From an uncultured Erysipelotrichaceae bacterium (GTDB taxonomy: Bacteria; Bacillota_I; Bacilli_A; RFN20; CAG-826): DNA of 64,000 bases. The stretch spans positions 1 through 64,000 of the forward strand of contig CADCLU010000004.1 in the NCBI GenBank assembly GCA_902802355.1, given 5' to 3'. The first letter of the stretch is position 1; each line of letters starts with the position of its first letter. The notes beneath the pieces were generated by a model. It did no database searches. It worked only from the letters and a program-made list of their open reading frames with translations, and was not told the DNA's origin. This document shows positions 36,985 to 43,858 of this stretch, piece after piece. The position numbers were made by a program, and so were the translations under genes.

Positions 36985-37863
36985 CTACTTAAAACCGAAG
37001 AGTCTTGATAAGAGTCCCTTCTTCTCCTTGAAATTGTCTTTGTCTGCGAAGGCCTTGAGGATATCCTCACGCATTAGGAACGCGTTGGCGTATCTCTCTT
37101 CAGGCCTCTTTCGGCAGGCTTTGACGATGATTTTATCGAGCGACTTCGGGATAGAAGCAAGATACTTGCTTGGCTCCGGGAAGTGCTTTTTGATCTGAGC
37201 GATTGCGACGTCTTCTGGGGTGGCTCCATCAAACGGGATGGTGCCAGTAAGGATTTCGAAGAAGATGATGCCCATGGAGTAGATGTCGCTTGCGACATTG
37301 GCAGGCTCACCCATGAGAATCTCTGGGGCGCAGTAATAGACGGTTCCGGTGATCGCGTCTCCGGTCGCTTTCTCCCCTATTTTGCTAGAGATTCCGAAGT
37401 CAGTGATCTTGACGCTGCCATCTGGAAGGTAGAAAAGGTTATCTGGTTTTAGGTCTCTATGAAGGAGTCCGTGCTCATGGATGTAGGAGACGCCTTCAGT
37501 TAACTGAAGCATGACTTGGCAGGCTTCTTGCGGTGAGAGGTTATGACCGCTGACGAGGTTGAGCTTATCGCGAAGGGTTCTGCCGTCGACATACTCGTTG
37601 GCCATGTATGGTCTGCCGTCCACAACGCCATGTCCGAAGACCTTGACGATGTTAGGGTTGTTAAGTGATGCGCTAGCGATGCATTCATGCTCAAAACGTT
37701 CGACGTTTTTCGGATTATCCATCATGTCTTCGCGCATGATCTTGAGGGCGACTGTCTTATGGAGGGCAACATCAAAAGCCTCATAGACATCGGCCATGCC
37801 GCCATGGGCGATTCTCCCCGTCACTCTGTAACGGTTATCTATCTTTTCACCAATCTCAATCAT
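36985..37863 (-). CDS. prkC: Hanks-type Ser/Thr protein kinase lacking PASTA and membrane segments
   Basis: The 292-residue protein consists almost only of the kinase domain: glycine loop GRIAHGGMADVYEA, VALKIM with the ATP lysine, HRDLKPDN catalytic loop, DFGISS, GTVYYCAPE and DIYSMGIIFFEILTG. After about residue 270 there is only a short basic tail (KEKKGLLSRLFGFK). PrkC normally continues with a membrane segment and extracellular PASTA repeats that sense peptidoglycan; none are present, so this form is soluble. The start at 37863 overlaps the prpC stop by 8 bases; prpC encodes the cognate phosphatase. The symbol rests on position and kinase type. Confidence 0.88.
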   Translation of the reverse strand: MIEIGEKIDNRYRVTGRIAHGGMADVYEAFDVALHKTVALKIMREDMMDNPKNVERFEHECIASASLNNPNIVKVFGHGVVDGRPYMANEYVDGRTLRDKLNLVSGHNLSPQEACQVMLQLTEGVSYIHEHGLLHRDLKPDNLFYLPDGSVKITDFGISSKIGEKATGDAITGTVYYCAPEILMGEPANVASDIYSMGIIFFEILTGTIPFDGATPEDVAIAQIKKHFPEPSKYLASIPKSLDKIIVKACRKRPEERYANAFLMREDILKAFADKDNFKEKKGLLSRLFGFK

Positions 37864-38605
37864 TTGAAATGCACTCCCAGAGGGCGACGGCGATGTTGTC
37901 GCTTCCCCCATTGCTATTTGCGATCGCTATAAGCGAATCGGCTTTCTGATCGCACCTTTCATCGGTGCTAAGGATGTTCGCCATCTCATCAAGCGGTACC
38001 TGGTTGTATAAGCCATCCGAGCAGCAAAGGATGGTCTCCCCTTGATACTCGAACTCATTGAAGGCAAGGCTGAGCGAAGGGAAGATGCCTAAGGCATTCA
38101 TGAGAACGTGCCTGTCAGGATGCGACAAGGCTTCCTCTTCGGAGATCTTCCCAGTCGAGACAAGGAAGTTCACGTATGTCTGGTCTTCGGTAAGCTGTTT
38201 GAGCTTATTTCTCTTTATGAGCATGTAGCAACGGCTGTCACCGATGCAGCAGGTATAAAGGGTGTTGTCGCTGATAAGAGCACAGACAAGCGTGGTTCCC
38301 ATGCCTTTGGCATCAGGGTTGTTCTCCGCGTATTCGTAGATGAGCGAATTGGCTTTCTTGGCCACTTTGGTGAACCAGCTTCTGTTGGTGGCCACGAAGT
38401 GGTGTTTTCTCTTATGACGGAAAGCGTCGACGAGGGTTTCGATGGCGATTTGCGAAGCAAGATCACCTTTCTTGGCGCCGCCCATGCCATCGCAGACGAC
38501 GAGGAAGACCTCGCCATTGGCGTTCATGGCGACCTGGGCTTTGTCATCGTTATGGGTTCTGACTTTGCCGATATCCGTTTTGAAAGCGTATGAACCGTGT
38601 CTCAT
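37856..38605 (-). CDS. prpC: PP2C-family protein phosphatase
   Basis: It reverses phosphorylation by the adjacent kinase. The 249-residue protein has the PPM motifs: RTHNDDKA near the N-terminus, VCDGMGG, CCIGDSR, LCCSDGL and GGSDNIAV, whose aspartates bind two Mn/Mg ions. AGGTAGGA precedes the ATG. It lies between rlmN (2-base gap) and prkC (8-base overlap), as in Bacillus. Confidence 0.94.
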   Translation of the reverse strand: MRHGSYAFKTDIGKVRTHNDDKAQVAMNANGEVFLVVCDGMGGAKKGDLASQIAIETLVDAFRHKRKHHFVATNRSWFTKVAKKANSLIYEYAENNPDAKGMGTTLVCALISDNTLYTCCIGDSRCYMLIKRNKLKQLTEDQTYVNFLVSTGKISEEEALSHPDRHVLMNALGIFPSLSLAFNEFEYQGETILCCSDGLYNQVPLDEMANILSTDERCDQKADSLIAIANSNGGSDNIAVALWECISND

Positions 38606-38607
38606 TG

Positions 38608-39654
38608 TTAGTTCCTACCTTTCACGTATTTGGCTCTGAGCTGGCCACATGCCGCGTCGATACCAGTGCCCCACTCCTTACGGACGGTGCAGTTGATGCC
38701 ATGGTTATTGAGATAGACCGAGAAGGCTTTGGTGTCTTTGTCGAGCGATCTCTCATATGGTTTCTCTTTGACTGGGTTAAGCGGGATGAGGTTGACGTAG
38801 CAAAGGATGCCACGGAGAAGCTCCGAGAGTTCCTTCGCACATTCAAGGGTGTCGTTGACGCCTTTGATGAGGATGTATTCGAAGGTGACGCGACGTCCGC
38901 TTTTCTCAATGTACTCTTTGACGGCATCGAGAAGGACATCCATCTTGTAGGCCTTCGATATTGGCATGAGTTCGTTTCTGATCTTGTCGTTTGGAGCGTG
39001 AAGCGAGATAGCAAGATTAACCTGGATGCCTTCATCGCCATAGCGTTTGATGCCTGGGACGAGACCGCAGGTGCTGACGGTGATGTGTCTAGCGCCGATC
39101 GCTAAGCCTTTGGCTTCGTTCATGATGTGGATGAAGCTAGAGACGTTGTCGTAGTTGTCGAATGGCTCACCGGTTCCCATGACGACGATGTGGGAAACGT
39201 TCTCCCCTTCTTCGAAGAGGATCTTATTCATGACCATGACCTGGCCAGTCATTTCGGCTGAGGTGAGGTTCCTTTCCCTCTTGAGGAGTCCAGAGGCACA
39301 GAAAGCGCAGCCCATGGAACAGCCGATTTGGGAGGAAACGCAGATGGCGTTGCCATAGTCATAACGCATGAGGACGCATTCGACTTTGGCTCCGTCTTCC
39401 ATTTCGACAAGGAGTTTGATTGTGCCGTCAGTCGCCACTTGTTTCGTGAAAATCCTTGGCAAATCAAGGCTATATTCCTCTTTCAGGACATCACGAAAAG
39501 ATTTGGAGATGTCGGTCATCGAATCGAAATCCGTCACTTTCTTGACGTAGATCCATTGATAAAGCTGAGTGGCGCGATATTTCTTCTCGCCTCTAGCGAT
39601 CATCTCCTCTTCAAGGGCTTTAAGGGTATATCCAAAGAGGTTCTTTTTCGGCAT
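38608..39654 (-). CDS. rlmN: Dual-specificity rRNA/tRNA adenine-C2 methyltransferase RlmN
   Basis: This radical SAM enzyme makes m2A2503 in 23S rRNA and m2A37 in some tRNAs. The 348-residue protein has the CSMGCAFC cluster motif, GMGEP-like MGTGEP, the STCGLVPGI segment and the C-terminal catalytic cysteine in DAACGQLR that forms the methyl-bearing adduct. The start has only a weak site and lies just after the stop of the RsmB-like gene. Order and length are normal. Confidence 0.95.
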   Translation of the reverse strand: MPKKNLFGYTLKALEEEMIARGEKKYRATQLYQWIYVKKVTDFDSMTDISKSFRDVLKEEYSLDLPRIFTKQVATDGTIKLLVEMEDGAKVECVLMRYDYGNAICVSSQIGCSMGCAFCASGLLKRERNLTSAEMTGQVMVMNKILFEEGENVSHIVVMGTGEPFDNYDNVSSFIHIMNEAKGLAIGARHITVSTCGLVPGIKRYGDEGIQVNLAISLHAPNDKIRNELMPISKAYKMDVLLDAVKEYIEKSGRRVTFEYILIKGVNDTLECAKELSELLRGILCYVNLIPLNPVKEKPYERSLDKDTKAFSVYLNNHGINCTVRKEWGTGIDAACGQLRAKYVKGRN

Positions 39655-39655
39655 T

Positions 39656-40996
39656 TTATTCTTTTGGTGAGGCAGTGAGTAAGTTGGTTGGGGCGTCGGC
39701 TAAGGAAGCGATGTCGCCGACAGGGGCTTCTGCTTTAGCAGCGATGGTATCCTTAACGAGGACGGCGTAGTAGAGAGCAGTAGCCTTTTCTTCGAAAGGC
39801 ATGTTCTGCTCTTCTTTGATGAGATGGAACTCTTTGTGGTTGGCTAAGAAGTCGTTGATGGTCTTGTTGCCTTCCTTCTTGCTGATTGTGTAAACGCAGT
39901 AGATGAGGGTTCCTTTCTCAGCGACGAACTTGGAGCATCCTTCGAGGACGGCTTTCTCTTGGGCGAAAAGGGCGTCCATCTCTTCCTTCTTGAAGTGAAG
40001 GAGGTAGTCTGGGTAATCGCGGATGAGATCGAAGTTCGAACTATTCGGAGCGGCGATGACGAGATCTTGTGGACGGGAGATTGCGGCTTCCATGGAATCA
40101 GGCTCGGCACCGAAGAAATTGATGTTCTTGTAGCCGGCGGTCTTGATCATGCGGGCGACGTCGGTGTAATTGTCGGTATTTGGGCAACCGAGGTTAAGAC
40201 CGATCTTGTCCTGATAGGTTTCGATGATCTCTTTGAAAAGAGATGAATCGGCGTTGGCGTTATAGATGAAGGCCTCTTTTGGCTCCTCGATCTTGTATTC
40301 GTCGAGCATGGCTTTGGTGGCCATTCTCTCAGCGAAGACGGCGCCTTGCTTGAATAGGTCTAATTTGCGAAGCGGGGTCTTTCCGCCATAAAGGAGGATG
40401 CCTTCCACTGGGGATTTGACAAAGTCAGGGCTGCTGTTGAGCACCTCTTCCACTGGCACCATCGAGGTACGAACGCGGACGCTGGAGGTGTTTTGCCTGG
40501 CATTGGCCTTGAGGATACGGTAGGTCTGGCCATATCCGAAATGCTGCCAGATCTTGAGAACCCACTCTGGGGTGTTGTATCTAAGCGAGAGATATTTGTT
40601 CGAAGTCTTTGGGAATTCGGCCGGGATGAATTCGTTTGGGGTTTCCGCCTTGGCGAAAAGTGGCTCGAGTTTGGCCATCTTCTCCTCACCGATCTTCTCG
40701 AGAAGTTCCTTCTTCATATCCTCAGCAGGGATACGCTTGAAGAAGTAGATGTCGGCAAGGGTGAGCTTGATCCACATCTTCTCCTCTTCGGTGAGACCTT
40801 CGATTTTGGCTTCCTCGACAAGGTGCGTGAAAAGCAAGTGATGGCGAAGCTCGCATCCGACGAGTCCAGCGACAGATCCTCTCAAAGGACGGATGGATTG
40901 ATCGGCTTGGAAAAGCTTCCTGAGAGCCTCGTTGAACTGGACATCATTCACAAGGATGTCGTTGAGGACCTTTTGGGCTAAATCAAATTCTTGCAT
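39656..40996 (-). CDS. RsmB-like protein with a degenerate, probably inactive methyltransferase domain
   Basis: The 446-residue protein sits exactly where rsmB (16S rRNA m5C967 methyltransferase) lies between priA and rlmN in Bacillus. It has the matching architecture: a NusB-like helical N-terminal domain (residues 1-115), a linker and a Rossmann-type domain (about 195-425). The SAM loop APGGKT is replaced by NANADSS (247-252). The APCS motif is APNS with Asn318 in place of cysteine, and the YxTC motif is YCVYT with Tyr369 in place of the second cysteine. Everything else aligns, including KGTLIY. It is therefore probably a non-catalytic descendant kept for RNA or ribosome binding. GGGAGGAAAG precedes the ATG. 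It ends in an Ala/Pro-rich tail. Confidence 0.75.
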   Translation of the reverse strand: MQEFDLAQKVLNDILVNDVQFNEALRKLFQADQSIRPLRGSVAGLVGCELRHHLLFTHLVEEAKIEGLTEEEKMWIKLTLADIYFFKRIPAEDMKKELLEKIGEEKMAKLEPLFAKAETPNEFIPAEFPKTSNKYLSLRYNTPEWVLKIWQHFGYGQTYRILKANARQNTSSVRVRTSMVPVEEVLNSSPDFVKSPVEGILLYGGKTPLRKLDLFKQGAVFAERMATKAMLDEYKIEEPKEAFIYNANADSSLFKEIIETYQDKIGLNLGCPNTDNYTDVARMIKTAGYKNINFFGAEPDSMEAAISRPQDLVIAAPNSSNFDLIRDYPDYLLHFKKEEMDALFAQEKAVLEGCSKFVAEKGTLIYCVYTISKKEGNKTINDFLANHKEFHLIKEEQNMPFEEKATALYYAVLVKDTIAAKAEAPVGDIASLADAPTNLLTASPKE

Positions 40997-41011: not shown

Positions 41012-41590
41012 TTAATGTTGGTGTTTATGTCCATGATGGTGGCAACAGCATTCACCATCGTGACAGCAATCTTCGTCTTTCTTGGCGTCTAGTGCTTCGA
41101 GTTCTTCCTCGTGGCCTGCAAAGACATCGCCAAGATAGATCTGTTCCTCATCGTCGATGTCGAGATCGGCACGGTCGAGAGGATTAGCTTCATCGCCATA
41201 TTCTTCCTCGTCATCGTAAGGCATCGCTTCTTCGGCGAGATTGCTTCTTTCGATGAAACGAGGGTAGCTTTCATTAACGTGTTCGTAGTGGTGTTCCTCT
41301 TCGAAATAAGAGAAGGTCACACTGAGGTTAATTGTGAAATCCGTGAAGGTTTTGATGAGATAATCGACGACTTTGCTCTCAAGAACAGCGTACTTCTTCG
41401 GGGCACGGACGATGATTTCCGTTTGCCAGGAAGTCTGCTCGACGCCTTTATGGAAAATCATGCTGTTTGGGGAGTAGAAGACAATCTCCTCCTCATCGCA
41501 TTCGAAAAGGCTCGCTAAATTTTCAGTGTTCTTCCTTGAGTAGGTGCCGACGACGAACTGGTCAAGGCCTAAGACAGAGATGACAATCAT
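41012..41590 (-). CDS. DUF1904-like protein with acidic linker and Cys/His-rich tail
   Basis: The 192-residue protein has an N-terminal part (1-110) resembling DUF1904, a tautomerase-like alpha/beta fold (LASLFECDEEEIVFYSP, a WQTEIIV strand, FSYFEEEHHYEH near the end). A strongly acidic segment follows (about 120-165) and then a final 18-residue tail with five cysteines and seven histidines (CCHDGECCCHHHGHKHQH), which must be able to bind metal. No function is known to me. AGAGGA precedes the ATG and a TATAAT lies at 41613-41618. It heads the stretch leading into the RsmB-like gene. Confidence 0.65.
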   Translation of the reverse strand: MIVISVLGLDQFVVGTYSRKNTENLASLFECDEEEIVFYSPNSMIFHKGVEQTSWQTEIIVRAPKKYAVLESKVVDYLIKTFTDFTINLSVTFSYFEEEHHYEHVNESYPRFIERSNLAEEAMPYDDEEEYGDEANPLDRADLDIDDEEQIYLGDVFAGHEEELEALDAKKDEDCCHDGECCCHHHGHKHQH

Positions 41591-41653: not shown

Positions 41654-43858
41654 TTAATAATCGAGAGGATCGACGTTTACGGAGATGTCTACACCGGCTA
41701 AAGAGGAGAATCTCTGGAGCAATTGCCTGAGATACGAATCGATGCTTTCCCTCTTCTTGAACTTGAGGAGAAGGACGCGTTTATGCTTGCCGTTGTTCAT
41801 TGAGTAGAACGGGGTGATTGGGCCTAAGACATTGAGATTCTCGATTCCTAAACCAAGGATCTCTTTCTTGAAATCCATTGAGGATTCCACTGCTTTCTCT
41901 TCTTTAGAAGAGGAGAATTCGAGAAGGATGCAGTTCCAGTATGGAGGATACTCGGTGATTCTTCTTTGTTGCATCTCACGGAGGTAGAACGCGCCATAGT
42001 CTTGTGACGCTCCGTTTTTGATCGCGTAATGGTCTGGGTTGTAGGTTTGGATCATTGCCTCCCCTACCCTCTTGGAACGACCGCTTCTACCAACCGCCTG
42101 AGCGATGAGCTGGAAGGTTCTTTCTGAGGCACGGTAAGTTGGTAAACTTAAACCGATATCGGCAAGGACGACTGCGGAGAGGGTGACATTAGGGAAATCG
42201 TGCCCCTTCGCGATCATCTGGGTTCCGACTAAGATATCGTATTTTCCATCCTTGAATTCATGGAGGATTTTCTCGACGTTTTTGGAGACTTTCCCGATGT
42301 CGCTGTCCATACGGGCCACCTTCGCTTCAGGGAAAAGATCCTGGAGTTCTTTGACGACTCTTTCGGTACCATAGCCCACTCTTCTTAGACGTGTATTGCC
42401 ACAGCTTGGGCAGTGCTCTGGATATTTCTCGACATAGCCACAGTGATGGCACTTAAGCATTGAGTCTTCTTGATGGAAAGTGAGGTTGCCGCCGCAGTTA
42501 GGGCAAGTGAAAATATGTCCGCATTTTGGACATTCGATTCCTGTCCAATAGCCACGTCTATTGATGAGCAAAAGAGCCTGCTCGCCTTTATCGAGCTTCT
42601 CTTTAATTTTGGCTATGAGAGGAGCACTCAGTTTCTCTGAATTCTTGCTGAAAACCTTGCGGTCTCTAAGGTCGATTATCTCGGTGTGAGGCAAAGCCTT
42701 TTCGTTGATACGGTGAGGCATTGAGGCATACCCATAAACACCTTTATCTGCTCTCGCTTTCGATTCAAGAGTTGGGGTTGCGCTTCCTAAAAGGACTTTG
42801 CAGCCTTCGATCTCGCCTCTCATGATGGCGACTTCCCTGGCGTGGTAATACGGAGAGTTGTCTTGTTTATATGATTCGACATGCTCCTCATCAAGAATGA
42901 TGAGGCCGATGTTCTTGAGTGGGGCGAAGACGGCACTTCTAGCACCGACGACGATCGAGGCATCTCCCCTGGCGATACGTCTATATTCGTCATATCTTTC
43001 AGCTGGGGTGAGCTCACTATGAAGGATGGCGACCTTTGGTCCGAATCTGCGGCTGAAATATTCCACCATCGCTGGGGTGAGGTTGATCTCTGGCACGAGC
43101 ATGAGGACGGATTTGCCTTCCTCAAGGACCTTCTCGCTTAAGCGAAGATAGACTTCGGTCTTTCCTGAACCGGTGACACCTTCAAGGAGGACGACTCCTT
43201 TGTCACTATTTCTGATATCGTCGAAAGCCTTCCTTTGCTCTAAGGACATCTCATGAGGCTCTTCTCTTTCCTCAGGCCTGATATGGAACCTCTCTTTTTC
43301 TTTGAGGACGATCTTCACTCGACCTTTCTCAAGAAGCTTTTTGAGGATGGCGATGCTTCCGCACTCCTTCTTGAGGATTGGGGTATTCGAAGCAATGAGA
43401 CGAAGCATCTCAATCTGTTTATCAGTGAGATCGTTTTCATCATTTTTGACTAGTTCGACCCACTGCTCATATGCGATCTTTGGGCCACGTAATGCAGAGG
43501 TTTTTGGAGATAGCGATAATGGCAACATCGCCTGCAAAACCCCAATGAATGGTGCCAAATAGTACTGCGAAACCTTGTTGGCGAGCTCCATCATTTGGTC
43601 ATCGACAAGAGGCTCTTCATCGATGATGTCGTAGTCATGAATTTCTTTAAAAGCGTACCCGTTTTCTTCTTCGAGTTCTTTGATGGTTTTCTTCGTGTCT
43701 CTGACTGCAAGAACGAAACCCATGACGGCTTCTTGGGCGCCGAAAGAGATCCTCACCCTGAAGCGAGGCTCGATTCTTTTGCCACCGCGATAGACATACG
43801 AAAAAGTGCGGTCCAAAGACCTTTTCCCGTATTCAGTCAGAACGTCGATAATCTTCAT
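41654..43858 (-). CDS. priA: Primosomal protein N' (replication restart helicase PriA)
   Basis: PriA restarts collapsed replication forks. The 734-residue protein has an N-terminal 3'-DNA-binding domain, Walker A GVTGSGKTEVY, the DEEH box, the zinc-binding insertion with paired cysteines (CPKCGHIFTCPNCGG, CHHCGY, CPSCGN) and helicase motifs V-VI (QAVGRSGR). The ATG at 43858 has no Shine-Dalgarno. Instead TGTTAGAAT, an extended -10, ends 7 bases before it, so the message is probably leaderless. gmk lies just upstream. Confidence 0.96.
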   Translation of the reverse strand: MKIIDVLTEYGKRSLDRTFSYVYRGGKRIEPRFRVRISFGAQEAVMGFVLAVRDTKKTIKELEEENGYAFKEIHDYDIIDEEPLVDDQMMELANKVSQYYLAPFIGVLQAMLPLSLSPKTSALRGPKIAYEQWVELVKNDENDLTDKQIEMLRLIASNTPILKKECGSIAILKKLLEKGRVKIVLKEKERFHIRPEEREEPHEMSLEQRKAFDDIRNSDKGVVLLEGVTGSGKTEVYLRLSEKVLEEGKSVLMLVPEINLTPAMVEYFSRRFGPKVAILHSELTPAERYDEYRRIARGDASIVVGARSAVFAPLKNIGLIILDEEHVESYKQDNSPYYHAREVAIMRGEIEGCKVLLGSATPTLESKARADKGVYGYASMPHRINEKALPHTEIIDLRDRKVFSKNSEKLSAPLIAKIKEKLDKGEQALLLINRRGYWTGIECPKCGHIFTCPNCGGNLTFHQEDSMLKCHHCGYVEKYPEHCPSCGNTRLRRVGYGTERVVKELQDLFPEAKVARMDSDIGKVSKNVEKILHEFKDGKYDILVGTQMIAKGHDFPNVTLSAVVLADIGLSLPTYRASERTFQLIAQAVGRSGRSKRVGEAMIQTYNPDHYAIKNGASQDYGAFYLREMQQRRITEYPPYWNCILLEFSSSKEEKAVESSMDFKKEILGLGIENLNVLGPITPFYSMNNGKHKRVLLLKFKKRESIDSYLRQLLQRFSSLAGVDISVNVDPLDY

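Follow-up and report, generated by a model that had tools for sequence, protein, structure and literature searches.

The window, a stretch of 64,000 nucleotides from an uncultured Erysipelotrichaceae bacterium, was found to carry on one strand the genes gmk, priA, orfX, an rsmB homologue stripped of its catalytic motifs (hereafter the dead rsmB), rlmN, prpC, prkC and rpe, in that order (Table 1). The rpe label was assigned from the sequence of the gene and the gene order, without a family scan. The prkC-like kinase (308 aa, 36985-37911, minus strand) adjoined prpC, and no PASTA repeats were seen in it in a Pfam scan. The first-pass annotation had placed the dead gene between priA and rlmN as rsmB in Bacillus. 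That place was confirmed, but orfX was found to intervene between priA and the dead rsmB. The open full-length frame described earlier, for which the strand had not been given, was recovered as a 446-codon ORF starting from ATG on the minus strand. The rsmB-rlmN synteny was seen wherever the flanks of the relatives were long enough, and the gap between the stop codon of the dead rsmB and the start of rlmN ranged from a few to some tens of nucleotides in most of them. Judged from its place and its full-length homology, the window gene is an rsmB orthologue. The genome itself (1.09 Mb, 30 contigs) gave two PF01189 matches, namely the window gene and, on a different contig, an RsmF-like protein with intact motifs, which could in principle make m5C967. 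A co-loss of fmt (formylation) was considered and rejected: the gene occurs elsewhere in the same genome, and 55 of the 61 genomes screened for it carried it.

Table 1. Features of the rsmB locus, in window coordinates.
Feature	Position	Strand	Remarks
rlmN	38608..39654	minus	next gene downstream, 1 nt past the dead rsmB stop
Dead rsmB homologue	39656..40996	minus	446 aa plus stop, ATG start
N-terminal NusB-like part	40607..40996	minus	residues ~1-130, approximate boundary; profile alignment to 1sqf
Ferredoxin-like RsmF/B domain	40331..40606	minus	residues ~131-222, approximate boundary
Rossmann methyltransferase-like domain without SAM site	39746..40330	minus	residues ~223-417
Degenerate SAM loop YNANADSS	40241..40264	minus	residues 245-252; D-x-C-A-A-P-G-x-K in active enzymes
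Degenerate motif IV AAPNSS	40037..40054	minus	residues 315-320; Cys325 gone
Degenerate motif VI YCVY	39890..39901	minus	residues 366-369; Cys375 replaced by Tyr369
orfX, 192 aa	41015..41590	minus	DUF1904/MIF-like fold, acidic linker, His/Cys-rich tail
orfX C-terminal motif IYLGDVF	41120..41140	minus	residues 151-157
priA	41654..43858	minus	upstream landmark

The domain content of the protein was established by profile alignment. A profile of 26 relatives was aligned at positions 6-414 with residues 10-428 of E. coli Fmu/RsmB (1sqf) with an E value of 2.2e-20, and the NusB-like, ferredoxin-like and Rossmann methyltransferase domains were thus recognized in one chain. Nearly all of 1sqf was covered, which bears out the full-length NusB-like plus Rossmann architecture proposed before. 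When the PDB was searched with the single window protein by phmmer, one chain was returned, the Fmu homologue 2yxl (E 3.8e-6). Family models gave matches below their cut-offs: PF22458 matched weakly at residues 143-187 (E 0.013), PF01189 scored 24.6 bits against a cut-off of 27, and the NCBIfam RsmB equivalog NF011494 scored 76.9 bits against 319. The structure model of the dead RsmB was too poor for a surface to be derived from it (pLDDT 54), probably because only nine close sequences were usable, and its fold matches added nothing to the sequence result.

Catalysis by RsmB involves Cys325 of the PCS motif and the nucleophile Cys375 of the TC motif. All three sites named in the first-pass annotation were changed in the window protein. 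The SAM loop, DLCAAPGGK in E. coli RsmB, read YNANADSS, and the column of Cys375 was occupied by Tyr369. The loss of the other cysteine also stood; however, Asn318, suggested earlier as its counterpart, was obtained only with a shifted gap, while MAFFT gave Ser319, and no Cys was present either way. It was concluded that the window RsmB homologue is almost certainly a dead enzyme.

The dead rsmB was found in 35 of the 36 other genomes of the same genus, in two of them as pieces. For a wider comparison, 108 homologues from 41 genera of families f1 (89), f3 (9) and f5 (10) were read, after the removal of a second copy of the window gene (L002), a second copy of L046 (L207), a fragment (L219) and two RsmF-like proteins (L235 and L236). 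The SAM loop was present in none of the 108, and Cys375 in none of the 107 sequences that reach this column (L032 ends before it), where Y (38), P (24), N (14), T (6), D (5) and other residues were found. The short rows L032, L227 and L228 were also left out of the figures given as one per genus. The motif loss is not a matter of chance, since every f1, f3 and f5 homologue read lacked the SAM loop and, where the column was covered, the nucleophile Cys as well. All three motifs were intact in E. coli and in all eight homologues of the order from families f2, f6 and f8. The NF011494 cut-off was exceeded by none of the 265 f1, f3 and f5 genomes and by 8 of the 14 genomes in the other families of the order, these eight belonging to f2, f6, f7 and f8, with 279 genomes in total. 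An f2 genome, G044, scored 301 bits and was partly masked, with its motifs intact; in the four genomes of f4 no RsmB above the cut-off was found. Hence, the motif losses were shared across 41 genera, the intact motifs were confined to other families, and the window copy was not the lone decaying allele that would have spoken against the earlier claim.

A Cys in the Cys325 column was recorded in 6 of the 108 homologues (L171, L174, L190, L193, L203, L210). Nothing else pointed to a surviving enzyme that uses a different cofactor or chemistry, and this was no positive sign of one. The columns of a newly evolved active site should be invariant, whereas the former catalytic columns were variable, and such an enzyme was considered extremely unlikely.

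The history of the loss was followed on a PriA+RlmN tree, as RlmN alone was unresolved as a species tree. In the unrooted tree of 32 loci, a single branch parted the 7 active from the 25 dead loci with an SH-aLRT of 96, and the same branch received 99 in a 26-row set. The tree is consistent with one loss in the common ancestor of f1, f3 and f5, which we regard as likely. Since E. coli and other Bacilli carry an active RsmB, the loss is most naturally placed on the dead side. SAM binding and both catalytic cysteines were lost in the f1/f3/f5 ancestor, and the protein has since been kept as a pseudoenzyme by purifying selection. It was also observed that many genomes of another family of the class, f17, gave weak NF011494 matches, mostly with E values of ~1e-9 to 1e-22, like those of the dead clade; f17 may be another dead-RsmB family.

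The selection on the protein was estimated (NG86) among eight near relatives, where dN/dS was 0.079 for the dead rsmB and 0.034 for rlmN. In six of these eight, where orfX was whole, orfX gave 0.085. By part of the dead gene, the values were 0.099 for the NusB-like, 0.067 for the ferredoxin-like and 0.063 for the methyltransferase-like domain, and 0.102 for the tail. Other groups gave 0.23 to 0.42 for the dead rsmB, mostly at high dS and always above rlmN. The active rsmB of family f8 gave 0.287 against 0.146 for rlmN, from few and near-saturated pairs, so that the ratio between the dead rsmB and rlmN was of the same order as that of the active enzyme. The value of 0.079 indicates that the dead RsmB is very likely under selection. 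The idea that the protein is retained for its NusB domain was not supported, as this domain was the least conserved between genera (identity 0.203 against 0.252 and 0.278) and its dN/dS was the highest of the three domains.

The nature of the retained residues was examined at 52 methyltransferase columns that were near-invariant in nine active proteins. Forty were lost in the dead set, including every SAM and catalytic column, and 12 were kept, each in half or more of the dead genera. The kept columns included P335, D336, G368, Y372, P413 and E381, the last found in 40 of 40 genera. The scaffold was therefore retained and the chemistry was not. Selection rather than decay had been suggested by the first-pass annotation, and the low dN/dS in every part, together with open frames and a kept scaffold in 41 genera, upheld that claim.

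The dead gene was nevertheless found to be absent in places. It was cleanly deleted in lineage g46 (G240, G241, G242 and G244) and in part of lineage g31 (G145, G149, G151, G153 and G165), orfX being followed directly by rlmN in both. Ten deletion loci were read (L237-L246), of which one, a second G241 locus on a contig that ends after orfX, has priA-orfX alone; at the five g31 loci, priA was also gone from that place. No profile match to the dead rsmB was found in g43. Some g43 (f1) and g56 (f3) genomes were seen to encode a protein of ~310 aa resembling an m5C methyltransferase without the N-terminal part. The clean deletions indicate that the role of the dead RsmB is dispensable in some lineages and, occurring in two lineages, count against a vital role.

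Such losses would also fit a slow decay, in which the gene is a relic of a marginal function shed lineage by lineage. The same holds for the identity of the methyltransferase part between genera, 0.278 in the dead set against 0.501 in the active proteins, the two sets being unequal in size and depth. However, a decaying relic does not agree with the low dN/dS among near relatives, the full-length frames in 41 genera or the universal E381, and slow decay was judged improbable. The single nucleotide between the dead rsmB stop and the rlmN start in the window could suggest that the gene, whatever its sequence, is a mere spacer that keeps rlmN translationally coupled. This was largely refuted by dN/dS, as purifying selection acted on the amino acids of every domain. 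Further, orfX joins rlmN directly in the deletion clades, so a spacer is not needed, and we give this explanation hardly any weight.

A place between priA and rsmB was found for orfX only in the dead-RsmB clade. Its profile matched 251 of the 265 f1, f3 and f5 genomes, weakly two of the four f4 genomes and none of the ten genomes of f2, f6, f7 and f8 (for six of these, as deduced from the matches listed); strong matches within the order occurred only in families without an active RsmB. The window orfX scored 17.9 with PF08921 (DUF1904), below the gathering score of 24.1, and 21 of 32 relatives matched with E values no higher than 0.05, the lowest being 6.2e-9. A model of its N-terminal domain, with pLDDT mostly 73-93 and ~50 around residues 41-50, gave 4m1a (DUF1904) as the best Foldseek match (E 1.4e-6), and the domain was assigned to the MIF/DUF1904 fold. 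Proteins of the DUF1904/MIF-tautomerase fold (4m1a, 1u9d) were the best fold matches for this domain; orfX differs from them by its acidic linker, a short conserved C-terminal motif and the lack of a proline after the start Met, which is the catalytic residue of MIF proteins. The IYLGDVF-like motif, defined after inspection of the alignment, was present in 91 of 98 orfX proteins against 0.55% of shuffled tails. The idea that orfX exists in order to bind the dead RsmB was considered but was not supported, since orfX was retained with its C-terminal motif at the g46 and g31 deletion loci. The two genes share a history, and orfX is independent of the dead RsmB.

The target of RsmB lies in helix 31 (h31) of 16S rRNA, which reads G966 C967 A968 A969 C970 in E. 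coli numbering. The h31 pattern requires an assembled, matching 16S gene, and this was available for 50 of 279 genomes in the order and 74 of 296 in the class. Outside the order, the RsmB status was set by the NF011494 cut-off alone, and G481 (310 bits, full length) was counted as active. The window's own genome and 10 other readable genomes of the genus carried C967 U968. Among 48 genomes of the dead clade (f1 and f3; no f5 genome matched the pattern), C967 was present in all 48, followed by U968 in 36 and A968 in 12. All 43 genomes with an active RsmB (two from the order and 41 from the rest of the class) carried C-A, as did G051 of f4. The 21 genomes outside the order without RsmB above the cut-off carried A-U (15), C-U (3), G-U (1) or C-A (2). 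In total, positions 967/968 were not C-A in 55 of the 70 genomes judged to be without active RsmB, and the non-C-A states spanned several families. The association between 967/968 and RsmB status was strong, with relatedness uncorrected.

A strict tracking of RsmB death by the h31 change was rejected, since A968 was kept in 12 of the 48 dead-clade genomes; the change at 968 is thus not required. All dead-clade genomes also form one lineage, so the link does not represent many independent events. C967 is kept even in two genomes of g43, where the profile gave no dead rsmB, and the retention of C967 is therefore no proof of binding. In addition, the 16S gene of the window's genome (L063 ~2424-2460, outside the window) contained, shortly before h31 on its upstream side, 8 extra nucleotides that form a tandem repeat of GGAGCATG. 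The insertion was missing in the four relatives compared and is either real or an error of MAG assembly.

We proposed, tentatively and by analogy, that the dead RsmB could be a SAM-independent assembly factor of helix 31 and 16S rRNA. It would bind the nascent 16S rRNA in the 3' major domain, around helix 31, and, as a folding or assembly factor, transiently shield the H31 loop. Such shielding would prevent misfolding of H30/H31, while the methyl mark itself was abandoned. Without the mark, A968 next to C967 would have become free to change, as A968U in most of the clade. By this account orfX arrived along the same part of the tree, and it may take part in assembly. The analogy comes from the accessible part of a study of the E. 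coli proteins (PMC13004024), in which the joint presence of RsmB and RsmD reduced the binding of an H30 probe to a misfolded class of nascent 3'-domain RNA in vitro, independently of SAM. A swap of the H31 loop mimicked this effect, and transient sequestering of the loop was proposed by the authors (PMC13004024). The retention of an RsmB fold without a SAM site is expected if H31 sequestering alone is under selection. The part in ribosome assembly or RNA binding suggested by the first-pass annotation gains some support from the SAM-independent effect in E. coli and loses some through the clean deletions in g46 and part of g31.

The function may instead have been kept elsewhere, the dead RsmB being a partner or regulator of RlmN or of the RsmF-like enzyme, or acting on another RNA. 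This is possible, if rather doubtful: rlmN directly follows the dead rsmB throughout and an intact RsmF-like paralogue is encoded in the genome, yet RlmN persists in g46 and g31 where the dead gene was deleted. We know of no complex between the dead RsmB and another protein. As for the helix 31 factor, a wider reading was also considered, in which an order-level radiation would have moved from the m5C967 mark to protein-only maturation of helix 31 by a chemistry-stripped RsmB and the nearly simultaneous orfX, the rRNA adapting (A968U) and later lineages being able to lose the dead RsmB but not orfX. We hold this to be fairly unlikely; if true, an rRNA modification would have been replaced for good by orfX.

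A long-standing question, usually approached with catalytic point mutants, is whether rRNA methyltransferases persist for their mark or for the handling of RNA. In this clade, the two seem to have been separated once by nature, and the outcome was kept in 41 sampled genera. The loss of the enzyme was linked to its rRNA target in the clade, and the h31 sequence is a possible predictor of RsmB status. Most descendants of the ancestor of this large group of uncultured Bacilli keep the dead RsmB intact at its old locus, where it may serve as a non-methylating aid to ribosome folding. The searches of the open-licence literature, which misses most subscription papers, gave no account of a dead RsmB in nature.

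Among known systems, the closest is RsmB itself (Fmu/Sun, the 16S m5C967 methyltransferase, 1sqf/1sqg). The domain order is alike and relatives in Bacilli share the place before rlmN, whereas the window protein has no SAM loop, Cys325 or Cys375 and lies far below the family cut-offs. As far as the accessible text goes, E. coli RsmB with RsmD shares the proposed methyl-independent sequestering of H31, but both are also enzymes (PMC13004024), while the window homologue, read from its sequence, has no enzyme activity. The accessible part of the report on Mycoplasma groups describes a reduced lineage of Bacilli that has dispensed with the m5C967 enzyme (PMC4014445); there the gene is absent, whereas the dead protein of f1, f3 and f5 was mostly kept. 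From the sections available, METTL17 is a small-subunit assembly factor with a methyltransferase fold in which the SAM motif is less conserved than the Fe-S residues, but it is mitochondrial, an Fe-S protein and a member of another methyltransferase family (PMC11046306). NSUN4-MTERF4, according to the portion accessible, is similar in that an m5C-family protein has a role in mitochondrial ribosome assembly apart from methylation, although NSUN4 still methylates and its partner is unlike orfX (PMC3916286).
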